A stretch of 64,000 nucleotides of DNA from NCBI GenBank assembly GCA_030066655.1, contig JASJBE010000006.1:1-64000 (forward strand). The letters run 5' to 3'. This document shows positions 28,135 to 63,507 of this stretch, in pieces; within the stretch, counting starts at the first letter, position 1; the number at the start of each line of letters is the position of its first letter. Under the pieces are notes generated by a model. The model was not told the origin of the DNA. It searched no databases and saw nothing but the letters and a program-made list of their open reading frames with translations. A program made the position numbers and the translations under genes. This DNA is from Woeseiaceae bacterium (lineage in GTDB: Bacteria; Pseudomonadota; Gammaproteobacteria; Steroidobacterales; Woeseiaceae).

Positions 28135-31100
28135 CTAGCCGTCGCGGCTGATCCCGAGTTTCTTCATTCTCGAGCGCAGCGTGCTCGGGGCGAGTCCGAG
28201 CTTCTCGGCAGCGCCTTGCGGGCCCGAGATTTTCCAGCCGGCGCTCTCCAGCACGGCAATGATGTGAGATCGTTCTTCGTATTCGGGGCTCGATGACCCG
28301 TTGCCGTTGCTCGTCACTGAGCCCTGGTCAGGCAAAGGTTCAGGCAGGCGCAGAACCGAATTATCGCCGGCCGAAATCAATGCGCGGACGATGACGCTCT
28401 CGAGCTCACGAATGTTACCGGGCCACTCATAGTTGTTCAGTTCGCTGATCATGCGCGCCGATATCGCCGTTATGGTCTTATTCAGCCGACCCGCGTGTTT
28501 TCGCACGAAGTGTTCGGCGAGCAGCGGGATGTCGCCGCTCCGGTCGCGCAGTGGCGGCAGCTCGATCGGGAAACTGTTGATTCTATAGAACAGGTCGTCC
28601 CGGAATTCGCCAGACACTGTGGCCGACCTAAGGTCGCGGTTGGTCGCCGCAATGAGCCTGACGTTGGCAACCCGCGTTTTTGAGCCACCGAGCCGCTCAT
28701 ACTCGCCCGTCTGAAGCACGCGCAACAGTTTCGCCTGGAGATCGAGAGACAGTTCGCCGATCTCATCGAGGAACAAAGTGCCGCCCTCGGCGAGTTCAAA
28801 CCGGCCCGGGCGCTTGGAGGTTGCTCCGGTAAAGGCGCCCTTCTCGTGACCGAACAGCTCGCTTTCGATAAGCGTCGACGGCAGGGCGGGGCAGTTGACG
28901 CTGATCATCGGGCGGTCCCTGCGTGAGCTCAGCTCATGAATCGACCGGGCAATAAGCTCCTTGCCCGTGCCCGACTCGCCGAGGATGAGAGCGGCGGCAT
29001 CCGACGGCGCGACTTTCTCGACCATCTGCAGGCAGTGCTTGAGACCCTCGTCTTCCCCGACGATCTCACTGAACTTGTGCGACAGCATCACCTCGCTGCG
29101 CAGGTAGTAGTTCTCTTCCTGGAGTTTTTCCTTGAGTCGCTGAATCTCGACAACGCCGCGCAATCGAGCCAGGGCGCCACCGATCGCTTCCGAGATTAAC
29201 GTCAGTTCCTCTACCGTCTTCGGCGACCAGCTCTTCTTCTTGCGGAAACAAATAAACGAAACCGCGCCGACCGTCACGTCGTTCAGGACGATGGGGAGCG
29301 TCAGAATCGATCGGGCTCTTGTTTCTCGAATCAATGCCGCACCGTCGCACCCGGTGTCCGCCAGCGCCTGTACGTCATCCAGAATAACCGGCTTGCTTGC
29401 CGACAGCGTTTCATTGACCCAGCCCAGCTTCTCCAGCGTGTAGCTTTCGGCAAGATTCTCGTCACCCCCGTGTGACCACCGGAATTCGAGGTTGGCTCGA
29501 GTGCCGTCGTCGCTGACCCACCAGGTGCTGACGGAGTCGATGCCGTAATGAGCGCCCGTGATGCGCAGGCCTTTCCTGACCTGCTGCTCGATCTGCTCCG
29601 GCGTCCCCTGGATCAGGTTGGACGAAACCTCTGCCAGCAGCTTCTGGAAGTCCGCGAAACGAACGATTTCGTCTTCGGCCAGTTGGCGCTCCGTGATGTC
29701 GTGGATGGTCCCCGCCATCGTCTGGCCGCGACCGTTGTATTCTTCCACGAACTCGGCTCGACAGCGCACGATTCGCTCTTTTCGGTCGGGTCGGACCACT
29801 CGTTGCACGATGGCGAAAGAGTCCTTCGCATCGATCGACTTCTCGATGGTGCTGCGGGTCGTCTCCCGGTCATCCGGGTGCACGCGGTCCAGGAAGTGCT
29901 CTATCGACGGCGCGACATCCCGCGGATCGAGTCCCAGGATGCGGTAAAGCTCGTCCGACCACCAGCATTCTCCGGTGTCGAGCTCCCATTCCCAGTTGCC
30001 GATCGTCGCGATTCGCTGGGCCGTATTCAGTCGCGTCTCAACCTGCTCGAGCTCAGTGGCATAGCGAAGCGTCGCGGCCTGCATCGCCCGTTGCCTGAAT
30101 GAACGAATCATCGCCAGTACGAGCATAAGGATGGCGAGCGCATACAGCAGGTAGGCCCACCAGCTAGCCCACGGCGCAGGCTGGACATGCAGGCTCAGCG
30201 TGGCTTCGTCGACCGACCAGGTACCGTCGCCGTTACCGGCCCTGACACGGAACGTGTAGTCGCCGGCGGGCAGGTTCGTGTAGGTCGCCTGGCGGCGGTT
30301 GCCGGCGTCTATCCAGTCCGAGTCGAGACCGTCGAGCCTGTACATGAAGCGATGGCGCAGCGGCGCGGCGAAGTCCAGCGCCGCAAACTCGAAGCTGACC
30401 AGGTACTCGTCGTGCCGTAGCGCGACGGCGACACCATCGCGACGCGACTCCGTCAGGTCCACCGGTTCGTTTAGGCTCAGCAAACTTGTAATAGCGACCC
30501 GTGGCGCGCGCCCCTTGGCGGTCAGTGCAGCCGGGTCGAAGGCATTGAATCCATTCAGACCGCCGAAAAACAACGAACCGTCCGAACTGCCGTATCCGGC
30601 GGCGAAGTTGAACTCATTGCCCTGCAGCCCATCATCGGTGGTGAAGTTCCTGAATTCCCGCGTGACGACGTCGAGGCAAGACAGCCCTCGTCCCGTGCTC
30701 ATCCACAGGTTGCCCTGTTCGTCCCAGGTGCCGCTGTAGATGGTTGCGTTCGGCAAACCGTCAATCTCCGAGAATCGCTCGAAAGTGACGTTGCCCTGGT
30801 CGCGATCCTGTTTCGACCAGCGATTCAGGCCGCCGCCTTTGGCAGCGATCCAGAGGTCGCCGCTGGGATCCTCTGTGATCAGGTAAATTTCGTTGCCACT
30901 GAGTCCGTCGTTGCGCCTCGGCTCCGCCTCGATTCTCTCGAAGTTGCCGTTGGCCCTGTCGAATCGATTCAGGCTGCCACCGAACGTACCTACCCACAGC
31001 GTCTGCGAGGAGTCTTCGAACAGATGCAAGATTCGATCGCTGCTGATCGACGACGAATCCTCCGGGTCATGGCGAAAGCCGGTAAATGCCCCGGCTGACC

Positions 31101-32607
31101 GGTCGAAGTAACAGAGCCCGCCGCCGAAGGTTGCGACCCACAATCCGGCTTTGCCGCTGTCCTCGATAAGGTAGGACACGCCGTCGGCACAGAGGCTGGT
31201 CGGGTCGGCGCTGTCATGGACATATCGTGTGACGCCGTCGGCATCGATACGGTTGAGGCCGGCGTTGCGAGTGCCCGCCCAGATGGTTCCGGTGCTGTCG
31301 GTGAGAAGAGCCATAACACGGTTCGATGAGATGCTGCTGTCGTCCTCCGGGTCGTGAACGAGCCGTGAGAACCTGCCGACTTCTCTGTCGAGAATATTGA
31401 TGCCGCCGCCGAATGTGCCAACCCAGACTCGGCCGGTCGCGTCCTCCGTAAAGGAAGTGACGACGTTGGACGACAGGGACGAAGGATCGTTTGCGTCCTG
31501 CCGGTAATGCAACATCGCTCGTGTCGTCGGATTCCACAGCGACAGGCCTTCGTAGGTTCCGACCCAAAGCACGCCCCCGTGGTCCTGGAATATCGACAGA
31601 ACGTTGTCGTTCGCGATGCTGTCGGGATCAACCGGGTCCTCTCGATAGCTTGAAAAACTCATCGATTCGGGGTTCCAGGCATTGAGTCCCCGATCGGTTC
31701 CGACCCACAGCACGCCGTCATCGTCCTCGAATATCGCATTGACCTGGTTCGAGCTCAAAGAAGAGGGGTCTTCGGCACGGTGTTCGAAGCGTTCAAAGGT
31801 CGATGTGTCGTCATCAAAACGATTCAGGCCGCCAGTGAGAGTGCCGATCCACAGGTCTCCGCGACTGTCTTCAAATAGCGCGCGGAGGCGGCTGTCGCTG
31901 AGGCTCGCCGGGTCGTCCTGATCATGTCTGAAGTTCGTAAAGGTTTTCTCAATCGGGTTGAACCGGCTCAAGCCTTCACTGGTTGCGACCCAAAGCGTTC
32001 CATCGTTTCGCTGAGCGATATCCCAGACATGGCCTCCGGCGAGGCTGCCTGGGTCAAGCGGGTCGTGTGGAAAATGCTCGAAGATCCCCGTGTCCCGATC
32101 GAGGCGGTCCAGGCCTGAGCCGTCTGTTCCCACCCAGAGGTTGCCTGCGCTGTCTTCCATGACAACACGAACCAGGTTGTCAGCGATGCTGGTTCGATCC
32201 GTCGGGTCGTGCAGGTAGGTCTTAAAAGTTTCCGTGACCGGATCGAACGCCGAGAGGCCGCCCGCATCCGTGCCGATCCAGAGCAGGCCGGTATCGTCGA
32301 GAAACAGCGTCCGAATGCCGTCGTCCGCCAGCGCCTCCGGATTGTCCGGGTCTTCCGCGTAGATGCGGAAGTTGTGGCCATCGAACCGGTTCAGACCCTC
32401 CTGTGTCCCGAGCCACATGAAGCCGTCACGGTCCTGCGCCATTGCGTAGACGAAACTCTGGGACAGGCCATCTTCATGCGTGATGTGTGAGAAGCGCATG
32501 CTTCGTGAGTCACTCGCATGTGCATTGCCCACCGGCAACAGTACTGTCAGTATCAGCAAGACGAGCAGCAGGTTGGTCCAGCCCGCCTCAGATGAATGCG
32601 ATGACAT
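28135..32607 (-). CDS. Transmembrane sensor-sigma-54 activator fusion (propeller-PAS-GAF-AAA+-HTH)
   Basis: A 1490-residue protein. A signal peptide (1-31) leads to 14 Reg_prop repeats (two seven-blade propellers, about 35-715; e.g. '[11 protein letters not shown]', '[12 protein letters not shown]'). A Y_Y_Y domain (about 735-805) and a membrane segment (about 814-835) follow. Cytoplasmic parts: PAS (about 859-980), GAF (about 990-1150), then a sigma-54 interaction AAA+ domain with Walker A 'GESGTGKE' (about 1209) and the contact loop 'GAFTGA' (about 1256). It ends in a Fis-type HTH ('[20 protein letters not shown]'). The propeller half is that of hybrid two-component sensors; the kinase and receiver are replaced by a direct transcription activator. 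It lies 30 bp downstream of the S8 protease. Confidence 0.9.
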
Positions 32608-32637: not shown

Positions 32638-34551
32638 CTACTCCCGTTCCACCAGGCTGTCTATCGCAGCCGGCTGCGACGACAGGTCATTCCAAAGCAG
32701 CGCATCGTTCCAGAGCAGGCCATCATTCCATAGAAGGCCATCGTTCCAGAGGAGCCCGTCGTTCCACAGCAAACCGTCATTCCAGAGCAGACCGTCGTTC
32801 CAGAGCAGCCCGTTTTTAAAGAGCAGCCGTTTGCCGACTGCGATATAGGTTCCGTCCCATCGCAGCTCGTTGTAATCATCATCTTCGTCCGCTTGCTTAC
32901 CATCCGGCGTCGAGACATAAAAAACGCCGTCGTCATCCATGTTGGCCGGTCCCTGGTAGTGTTGCTGACCAGTGAGGTCCAGGTTGATGTCGAGACCCCG
33001 GTTAGCACAGCCGGTGAGGTCGTTATTCATGACCGCATCGTAGATATTGATACGTCCCGCACCCTGCTGGAATACGCTGTAGGCCAGTTCCTTCGTGTTC
33101 GCTTTCGTAAGGACATCCGCCGAGCTCATCAGCTGACACTTGACGTCGTCGGGCGACAGCCACGGCTTGGCTTCCAGCAATAGCGCGGCCGCGCCCGTGA
33201 CTACGGCAGCAGCCTGCGACGTGCCTGACACCTCGTACAGTCGATCGCCGACCCTCCGGTGAGGTCTCTTTCTGGCGACCTTATGGCTGGCATCGTCCAT
33301 GACGCCGACGATGTGGCCGCCCGGTGCGACTAGTTCCGGTTTTATGAATGCCTCGACCGTTGGCCCAGCGGCGGAGAATGACGCGATGCGGTCGTCATTC
33401 CATTTTTGAGGCGTGTGGTTGTCCGTGATGGCCCCGACAGTGATGATGTATGGCACATTGCCCGGGACCCCGATGGTCATCGGAGCGGGCCCGGTGTTGC
33501 CTGCTGACGAGACAACGACAATGCCGGATTGCCAGACCGCCATGACCGCCTGGTTGACCGGATCGTCCCAATAATAGGACTGAGGCGGCGCACTGAACGA
33601 CAGGTTAACGATTCGGATATTGAACTTGTCCTTCGCGCGGAGCAGAAAGTCCAGCCCCCGGATGACATCTGAATATGAACCGACACCGTCGTGGTTGAAT
33701 GCTTTGATACTGACGAGATCGACATTAGGCGCGATGCCCAGTACCTCGAGGTTTTCGCTGTCGAGCCCACGGTCGTTGTGTTCGCCACCGCTTGTTGCTG
33801 AGCCAGCGATGATGCTCGCCAAGTGAGTTCCGTGGCCGTTCCAGTCTGCCGCAGGACTCCGGGTTGTGCGCTGTCGAACAGGTGCCCGCGTCGCGGTCGC
33901 CTGAGAGTAGCGTTTCCGCCTGAGTTCGGTATCGGTAACTCGACCGCTCGACGCAATCTCACTGCTACTCGAGTCAACGTCCTTGCTGTCTAGTGGTTGG
34001 ATAGCGACGCGTGTGAGCGGCCTGCCCTGAACAAGCTCACTCGAATGATTCGTGTTAGTTCCGCGGTATGCGTTGATTTGGGCCAGTACACGTTCGCGCC
34101 CGTAAAGGTCCGTCGTGATACTGTCATCACCCAGCCAGAGACCCGTATCGAGTATCGCGACGGTAACTCCTGAGCCTGTGTAGCCTTGCCTGAGCAGTCG
34201 ATCGGCTCCTATCAGCCTGCCATGCGCATTGATCGACTGACCATTTCGTCCTGACGATTTCGAGCTATTGATGGCAGCCATGCCAATGCTGGCATCTTGG
34301 TAAATTCGAAGGTCACTCCGTGCCTCGAGACGCCCGAGTTGCCGTTTATCCAGGGCGGCGCTGACGGCCCGGATGATTGCGAGTTCGTGCGTGACCGCGG
34401 CTCCGACCGACGTAACGGCCTGCCGGGCCTCGTCGAGATTGCGTGCCTGGACGATGAATCTCTCGGTGTCAACCGATCGGTGAGCATTGAGTAGGAGAAG
34501 TGTTGTTACCAGGATTGAGAAAATTGCAAAACGACGGTAACTCAAGAGCAC
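32638..34551 (-). CDS. Exported subtilisin-family (S8) serine protease with LLWND-repeat tail
   Basis: A 637-residue secreted protease. Start is GTG 34551. A signal or anchor segment (about 9-21) precedes an I9-like propeptide (about 30-95). The catalytic triad is Asp135 ('VAILDTGLW'), His240 ('NGHGTHLAS') and Ser445 ('SGTSQAAAV'), with the oxyanion Asn near 352 ('AGNTGP'). It ends in about 55 residues with seven LLWND units. It sits upstream of a membrane-bound sigma-54 activator and is probably in its operon. Expected at the cell surface or outside the cell. Confidence 0.93.
   Translation of the reverse strand: MLLSYRRFAIFSILVTTLLLLNAHRSVDTERFIVQARNLDEARQAVTSVGAAVTHELAIIRAVSAALDKRQLGRLEARSDLRIYQDASIGMAAINSSKSSGRNGQSINAHGRLIGADRLLRQGYTGSGVTVAILDTGLWLGDDSITTDLYGRERVLAQINAYRGTNTNHSSELVQGRPLTRVAIQPLDSKDVDSSSSEIASSGRVTDTELRRKRYSQATATRAPVRQRTTRSPAADWNGHGTHLASIIAGSATSGGEHNDRGLDSENLEVLGIAPNVDLVSIKAFNHDGVGSYSDVIRGLDFLLRAKDKFNIRIVNLSFSAPPQSYYWDDPVNQAVMAVWQSGIVVVSSAGNTGPAPMTIGVPGNVPYIITVGAITDNHTPQKWNDDRIASFSAAGPTVEAFIKPELVAPGGHIVGVMDDASHKVARKRPHRRVGDRLYEVSGTSQAAAVVTGAAALLLEAKPWLSPDDVKCQLMSSADVLTKANTKELAYSVFQQGAGRINIYDAVMNNDLTGCANRGLDINLDLTGQQHYQGPANMDDDGVFYVSTPDGKQADEDDDYNELRWDGTYIAVGKRLLFKNGLLWNDGLLWNDGLLWNDGLLWNDGLLWNDGLLWNDALLWNDLSSQPAAIDSLVERE
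32687..32812 (-). repeat. Seven-copy 18-bp tandem repeat encoding GLLWND
   Basis: Seven consecutive 18-bp units near the 3' end of the S8 protease gene, each giving [G/A]-L-L-W-N-D. Third-base changes between units (for example CTG/CTC and GGC/GGT usage) leave the protein repeat unchanged except for one Gly to Ala change. Confidence 0.92.
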
Positions 34552-37288: not shown

Positions 37289-38050
37289 ATGAAGCGGCTG
37301 ATTATCATTGGAATCCTGTTATTGAGCGGGGTCGCTGCGATGGCCTATGAAGAACCCGAGTACGAGCTCCTGCGAGCATCAGACGAGTATGAAATCCGGC
37401 GCTACGCGCCTTACATCGTCGCGGAGGTCGATGTGTCCGGCAGTTTCCGCAGCGCCGGCAACAAGGCGTTCCGCATCCTGGCCGGCTATATCTTCGGTGA
37501 CAACCAGCCGCAGGCGAAGATGAACATGACGGTACCGGTAGAATCAAAAGCTATCGGAGAGAATGGAGCATCGATCGGACCGGTAGAATCAAAAGCTATC
37601 GGAGAGAATGGAGCATCGATCGGACCGGAAGAATCAAAAGCTATCGGAGAGAATGAAGCATCGACCGGAACCGTAGAGTCCGTCGATAAAGGTCAGAAGA
37701 TGAACATGACCGTGCCCGTAGAGTCGCGGGCTGCGGAGAACGGCGACGAGACCACATATACCTATGCCTTCGTCATGGAACGGGCCTACACGATGGAGAC
37801 GCTGCCGAAGCCGGACGACGAGCGTGTCCGGCTGGTTCTGCGGCCCGCAAAAGTCATGGCGGTTCGACCCTGGACCGGAAGCGCCAGGGAATCGAGGTAT
37901 GAGAAAGAGAAGGCCGCTTTGCTGGGGGCGCTAGAGTCGGATGCGGTAACAGTCGTCGGGACTCCGGCCTTCGCTCGCTTCAACGGTCCGTTTACCCCGT
38001 GGTTCATGAAGCGCAACGAGATTCACGTCGAGATCGAGTACGTCGAGTAA
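37289..38050 (+). CDS. SOUL-family heme-binding protein with internal tandem repeat
   Basis: A 253-residue exported protein: signal peptide (residues 1-19), then 'EPEYELLRASDEYEIRRYAPYIVAEVDV', the SOUL/HBP signature. The family's two 'MNMTVPVES' motifs appear at about residues 79 and 139. The spacer is expanded by three 15-residue copies of 'VESKAIGENGASIGP' (the third diverged). C-terminal 'FARFNGPFTPWFMKRNEIHVEI' is a typical end. SOUL proteins bind heme or tetrapyrroles. It is monocistronic. Confidence 0.9.
   Translation: MKRLIIIGILLLSGVAAMAYEEPEYELLRASDEYEIRRYAPYIVAEVDVSGSFRSAGNKAFRILAGYIFGDNQPQAKMNMTVPVESKAIGENGASIGPVESKAIGENGASIGPEESKAIGENEASTGTVESVDKGQKMNMTVPVESRAAENGDETTYTYAFVMERAYTMETLPKPDDERVRLVLRPAKVMAVRPWTGSARESRYEKEKAALLGALESDAVTVVGTPAFARFNGPFTPWFMKRNEIHVEIEYVE
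37536..37670 (+). repeat. Three-copy 45-bp tandem repeat inside the SOUL gene
   Basis: Three head-to-tail 45-bp units (37536-37580, 37581-37625, 37626-37670). The first two are identical; the third has several substitutions. The unit length keeps the reading frame. Confidence 0.93.
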
Positions 38051-63126: not shown

Positions 63127-63171
63127 AGGCAGGTAATTTACTGCCGGCGCGGCCGTGGCTGAATACGAGAC

Positions 63172-63507
63172 TATTCGTCCCGGAATACCAGCTTCGGGGC
63201 TGTATCGATGAGCAATGTCTACTCGTCTCTGAAGACCAGCTTCGGAGTTCTTTCGATGGAGCATGGCTATTCGTCTTGGAATACCAGCTTCGGGGTACTT
63301 TCAATGGAATGTCCCTATTCGTCCTTGAACACCAGCTTCGGGGCACTTTCGATGGAGTGTGGCTATTTGTCTTTGAACACCAGCTTCGGAGTCCTTTCGA
63401 TGGAGTGTGGCTATTCGTCTTTGAACACCAGCTTCGGAGTCCTTTCGATGGAACGTGGCTATTCGTCTTGGAACACCAGCTTCGGAGTACGGTCAACGAA
63501 GAATAAC
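63172..63507 (-). repeat. Seven-copy 48-bp tandem repeat at the 3' end of the GH17-like gene
   Basis: Seven contiguous 48-bp units: 63172, 63220, 63268, 63316, 63364, 63412 and 63460 (start positions). The last (63460-63507) is the final 16 codons of the glycoside hydrolase on the minus strand. In all seven, the minus-strand frame reads x-PKLVF-[QKR]-D-[EK] followed by TAG, with the frame kept (48 = 16 codons). Confidence 0.95.

Follow-up and report, generated by a model that had tools for sequence, protein, structure and literature searches.

Predicted S8 proteases with a conserved tryptophan-containing hexapeptide tail form one clade linked to Reg_prop and c-di-GMP signalling genes

In a stretch of 64,000 nucleotides from a Woeseiaceae bacterium (contig JASJBE010000006.1), called the window here, a predicted S8 protease (subtilase) ends in seven near-identical hexapeptides and a short C-terminal element (Table 1). 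The computational analysis covered selection on the repeated peptide, the grouping of the tailed proteases in one clade, the linkage of their genes to signalling genes, and the lack of a predicted fold for the tail. We give roughly even chances to the reading that the protein is the zymogen of an exported subtilase of an undescribed S8 clade, that its tail is a multivalent docking tail, and that it acts in one pathway with the adjacent sensor. The strongest lead to function is the gene linkage to Reg_prop, c-di-GMP and sigma54 signalling proteins. From sequence, probably exported subtilases with this distinctive Trp-repeat tail can be grouped in a clade that is widespread and connected with sensors of the Reg_prop and c-di-GMP types. 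Neither the clade nor the linkage was found in the open-access literature searched.

Table 1. Positions of the S8 protease gene, its parts and the downstream gene in the window
Feature	Position	Strand	Basis
S8 (subtilase) protease CDS, 637 aa, GTG start	32638..34551	-	ORF; PF00082 E=2e-49, residues 126-497
N-terminal hydrophobic helix, residues 1-22, signal peptide or anchor	34486..34551	-	AlphaFold2 helix 2-22; hydropathy peak residue 1
Propeptide-like beta-alpha-beta-beta-alpha-beta domain, residues 30-90	34282..34464	-	AlphaFold2 secondary-structure order, pLDDT >90 over most
Catalytic domain, D135/H240/S445/N352	33061..34176	-	Pfam, 54-homologue alignment
Degenerate hexapeptide unit RLLFKN (degenerate eighth, precedes array)	32812..32829	-	Sequence, Tandem Repeats Finder
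Seven hexapeptide units, 6 x GLLWND + 1 x ALLWND	32686..32811	-	Sequence
C-terminal element LSSQPAAIDSLVERE-COOH, divergent member of [SV]-[IV]-N-x-W-V-x-Q-E class	32641..32685	-	Alignment, census of ends
Downstream neighbour: signal peptide, Reg_prop propeller, Y_Y_Y, TM (about residue 816), PAS, GAF, sigma54 AAA, Fis-type HTH	28135..32607	-	ATG 30 bp after S8 stop

Peptidase_S8 was the sole Pfam match of the whole protein. Among 54 homologues, D135, H240 and S445 did not vary and N352 hardly did; with its PF00082 domain and intact Asp-His-Ser triad, the protein is predicted to be an S8 protease. The AlphaFold2 model comprises the N-terminal helix, the catalytic domain and, between them, a propeptide-like domain that may represent an I9-like propeptide; confidence in these parts is mostly high. 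Residues 560-637 received pLDDT values of about 30-40 with almost no secondary structure, and the tail of a homologue, predicted separately with 28 aligned tails, gave no fold either, the array scoring a pLDDT of about 30, low confidence from shallow repeat alignments being no proof of disorder. The tail had no match in Pfam (window protein and 54 members), no convincing NCBIfam model and no PDB sequence, in agreement with the preliminary description, which had called it unlike the usual C-terminal sorting domains. The best NCBIfam model, the type VII mycosin TIGR03921, was rejected, as its score of 109 bits lay below the curated cut-off of 278.75. A left-handed beta-helix was likewise rejected. 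Coils of 18 residues had been suggested by a superperiod of 54 bp in the window and by a small number of heterogeneous arrays, but there was no Pfam hexapeptide match and no lag peak at three units over the array set, and AlphaFold2 gave no solenoid, which is weak evidence.

It had been noted earlier that seven 18-bp units, placed one base off at 32687-32812, encode [G/A]LLWND at the protease C-terminus and that their third-base differences keep the peptide. Both observations were confirmed. ALLWND is the last encoded unit, 15 residues lie between the array end and the C-terminus, and Tandem Repeats Finder reported an 18-bp period with 7.9 copies. The minimal column changes among the units comprised nine at third positions, one at a first and one at a second position, and 10 of these 11 were silent, compared with 22% of random single changes (binomial p=2e-6, an indicative value because the changes are treated as independent). 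When units of the window array were compared with each other, the amino-acid difference was 0.07 and the silent third-position difference 0.63; in 91 arrays from 91 proteins, the respective values were 0.185 (variable positions) and 0.393. Because amino-acid divergence between units was low and silent third-position divergence was high, selection on the repeated peptide, which had been suggested for the window array before, is supported. Consensus units of different proteins differed by 0.66 across the 91 arrays, such that units were alike within a protein and unlike between proteins, even between adjacent paralogues (e.g. L063, L092, L114, L129). The mean hydropathy of the window array was about -0.06, and insertion of the tail into a membrane is therefore not favoured.

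Tandem repeats were also seen elsewhere in the window. At the end of a GH17/GH53-like gene (63171-63490, minus strand), about seven 48-bp units each repeat about the last 15 codons plus the stop (SIERTPKLVFKDE and stop), and the gene end seems to have been multiplied behind its own stop. Three 45-bp units (ESKAIGENGASIGP-like) lie at 37534-37677, inside the gene for a SOUL haem-binding protein (37289-38050).

The distribution of the tail was analysed with a 39-base degenerate pattern, and the reversed pattern served as a control. The pattern had 20 matches in the window's genome, and 10 of the 61 family genomes also contained matches. The reversed pattern gave none, so that the matches exceed chance. 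Two further tailed proteases, with AFLWTD arrays, are encoded in the window's genome, and the pattern occurred nowhere else in it. A scan of public genomes yielded at least 117 stretches with the pattern among the matches listed. After removal of chance matches, the tails among these listed matches sat on S8 proteins, with record titles from Gammaproteobacteria, Acidobacteriota, Chloroflexota (Anaerolineae), Actinomycetota and Bacillota; among ORFs of at least 400 aa they were confined to S8 proteins, bar one apparent chance match. PF00082 was present in 54 of 54 aligned tail members. The consensus over 118 S8 tails is [GSA]-[YVFLI]-[LVI]-W-[GSTAN]-D, or more generally [GSA]-x-[LVI]-W-x-D, in runs of 3-18 units with a median distance of 21 residues to the C-terminus. 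Trp-less spacers in the arrays often keep the 6-residue phase, e.g. GSVGAN. The ends that follow the array are class-specific (n=128): 46 were SINxWVxQE-like, 36 GD-like, 26 LNDD-like and 20 of other types, and the GD-ending group came mostly from Acidobacteriota. In the draft genomes of L101, L124 and L194, arrays or their genes were interrupted by frameshift or stop, by assembly error or by real loss. No relevant open-access paper was found for LLWND or VVWGD, and no family model was found for the tail; the tailed S8 branch is apparently undescribed.

In a quick tree of 106 catalytic domains, in which several long non-tail branches lie outside the tailed-clade split, the tailed proteins formed one starred clade of 81 rows with an SH-aLRT value of 97. 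Eight rows of the clade were not tagged as tailed; these were cut, frameshifted or stopped, masked, or carried the variant GTSWNE x13. In the closest relative of the window protein (L178, 64% identity), the array comprises eight units, and a gene of the same kind lies downstream. The preliminary description had held that the tail would have no function if homologues lacked any tail conservation and unit number were random with frame-breaking changes. The tail is common to the whole S8 clade, and the reading "no function" is refuted, because the tailed S8 proteins form one well-supported clade and every row in it without a tail tag is cut, broken, masked or variant. A second Alteromonas S8 protein of the clade (L069:2178-3908) has 13 perfect GTSWNE units and a WVSQE end, a tail type that escapes the LW pattern.

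The downstream gene encodes the Reg_prop propeller, Y_Y_Y domain and transmembrane segment of a Reg_prop/Y_Y_Y sensor. Its output part consists of PAS, GAF, sigma54 AAA and HTH_8 domains instead of histidine kinase and receiver domains, so that a hybrid two-component system was rejected. A sigma54 promoter before the S8 gene, i.e. autoregulation, was also rejected, as four loci sharing the same downstream gene yielded no convincing site (best-site p 0.72, 0.78, 0.19, 0.03). At the search threshold, Reg_prop occurred in only two ORFs of the window's genome, each of them next to a tail S8 gene; the neighbour of the third tail S8 gene is a PAS-GGDEF-EAL gene. In counts that ignore shared ancestry and use domains called by profiles built from Pfam-defined segments, a signalling neighbour was found for 19 of 27 tail S8 genes and 5 of 35 other S8 genes in nine family genomes (p=1.4e-5), two of the latter five representing tail-clade genes that are split or cut; in a wider set, signalling genes made up 36 of the 86 neighbours on the same strand as tail genes, compared with 21 of 202 other ORFs of the same stretches (p=8e-9); and Reg_prop was present in all 10 strict-tail genomes and 15 of the 51 others (p=4e-5, 61 family genomes). 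The linkage was also analysed from the Reg_prop side, using 20 regions from the family list, mostly of genomes without the strict tail pattern. A tailed S8 gene lay in the same cluster in nine of these regions, a test that is not fully blind because the contig of one of the nine (L223) is L065 in the pattern scan, and in seven of eight cases for Reg_prop-GGDEF genes.

Taken together, the linkage of tail S8 genes to signalling genes is well supported; gene order points to the same pathway, not to contact. The partners vary (Reg_prop, MASE9-HD-GYP-GGDEF, REC-GGDEF-EAL), with MASE9/GAF/HD-GYP/GGDEF proteins as frequent partners in Acidobacteriota and others. Many tails have no signalling neighbour, especially in the GD class, in which 8 of 36 have one. 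No paper linking S8 proteases with Reg_prop/GGDEF genes was found in the open-access literature. A cluster of GGDEF-EAL, REC-GGDEF-EAL, Reg_prop-GGDEF and tail S8 genes recurs (L106, L134, L171, L181, L223, L229-L234) and apparently represents a c-di-GMP island of Woeseiaceae and relatives. At one locus (L147:7104-7856), a gene for a pentapeptide-repeat protein directly follows the tailed S8 gene.

Because both proteins have N-terminal hydrophobic helices and the neighbour has a transmembrane segment after the propeller, the protease and the sensor domain are probably both outside the cytoplasm. The short Trp motifs of the tail, near-identical and followed by a brief C-terminal tag, would form a flexible array that most likely docks multivalently outside the cytoplasm and probably places the protease at the sensor or at the envelope. 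Repeated aromatic motifs of this kind ahead of a short end tag have the form expected of a multivalent docking tail. The protease and the membrane sensor of the adjacent gene would share a pathway, and the sensor would read the protease, the tail or the products. In the window this sensor joins a Reg_prop propeller to a sigma54 activator; at other loci its place is taken by Reg_prop-diguanylate cyclases or other c-di-GMP enzymes. Export, a shared compartment, docking, the binding partner of the tail and what is sensed are what we infer here. Due to the linkage, the sensor is the first candidate partner of the tail, but binding to a propeller cannot explain all loci because the partners differ. 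A narrower proposal, which we regard as quite unlikely, is that the array is a ligand read by the adjacent sensor and that protease and receptor are matched as a pair, the subtilase outside the cytoplasm reporting by way of its tail to c-di-GMP or sigma54 control. The pairing of tailed protease and sensor in general, if it holds, would supply Reg_prop-GGDEF and Reg_prop-sigma54 sensors with a candidate ligand or partner, and would open a new route from protease activity outside the cytoplasm to c-di-GMP or transcription control. The G-x-L-W motif of the tail resembles the G-x-L-W-[IV]-G-T motif of Reg_prop blades (GLLWND and GLLWIGT in the window's pair), and mimicry of a propeller strand by the tail is therefore conceivable. 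Reg_prop itself is a propeller motif related to WD40 and PQQ (Asp-box paper, PMC2716378).

Regularly spaced Trp residues together with Asp, Gly or Ser are common in sugar contacts. The Trp/Asp array might accordingly stack on a cell-surface or biofilm polysaccharide and anchor the protease to the envelope or matrix, with the c-di-GMP neighbours switching matrix production. We consider this unlikely, yet it stays a strong rival because the partners vary, and the GGDEF/EAL/HD-GYP neighbours, one match each to two carbohydrate-binding families among the 54 homologues, and the response of Bacteroides Reg_prop/YYY sensors to oligosaccharides (PMC3243724) are in its favour. However, the tail itself matched no carbohydrate-binding family, and anchoring alone does not explain the sharp C-terminal motif. 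Alternatively, the tail could be a signal for sorting or for a second secretion step that is recognised at the C-terminus. It would then resemble RTX/T1SS tails or T9SS C-terminal domains while serving an undescribed pathway. In favour of this, the tail is nearly always C-terminal, at a median of 21 residues from the end, and has class-specific ends such as SINxWVxQE-COOH and LNDD-COOH. Yet the neighbours scanned included no export gene and often signalling genes, and the tail also occurs in records titled Bacillota, Actinomycetota and Chloroflexota; it is not of the RTX type, and Pfam detected no T9SS domain. A sorting signal is thus distinctly unlikely.

It is even less probable that the tail is a precursor cut, by the protease or another enzyme, into near-identical hexapeptides that signal to the adjacent membrane sensor, as in multi-copy pheromone precursors. 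The likeness of units within a protein under silent divergence, their unlikeness between proteins and adjacent paralogues, and the membrane sensors adjoining tail S8 genes fit a precursor, but no cleavage site was identified, runs can be as short as three units, and the phase-keeping Trp-less spacers suggest that the array works as a unit. Neutral satellite expansion could produce the variable unit number (3-18) and the frameshifted or stopped arrays of some draft genomes; it is nearly negligible in view of the almost exclusively silent divergence, the purifying selection found on the units and the clade-wide retention of the tail.

Several known systems resemble the tailed protease in part. 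The nearest solved relatives, the S8 subtilases 3afg and 9ues, share the catalytic domain, the triad and a propeptide-like domain, but their chains match only residues 234-535 of the window protein and not the hexapeptide tail. RTX proteases and proteins with T9SS C-terminal domains likewise carry C-terminal repeats or a tag. RTX repeats, however, are nonapeptides (GGxGxDxUx), whereas the present array has a period of six, no match to an RTX or any other Pfam family and an N-terminal signal-like helix on its protein, and no Por secretion C-terminal domain family was found by Pfam in the 54 members. In the LapG/LapD system, a c-di-GMP receptor holds a periplasmic protease. A protease outside the cytoplasm would similarly be tied to a c-di-GMP protein here, and contact between the two would be a putative parallel. 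LapG, however, belongs to the cysteine proteases and has no tail of this kind. Bacteroides hybrid two-component sensors (Reg_prop plus Y_Y_Y) share propeller, Y_Y_Y domain and transmembrane segment with the neighbour gene. They signal through a histidine kinase with receiver, whereas the sensors described here have a sigma54 activator or GGDEF output and are linked to a tailed protease. The Bacteroides sensors are encoded beside degradative enzymes whose products are sensed (PMC3243724), a gene order that would support a pathway link without contact.
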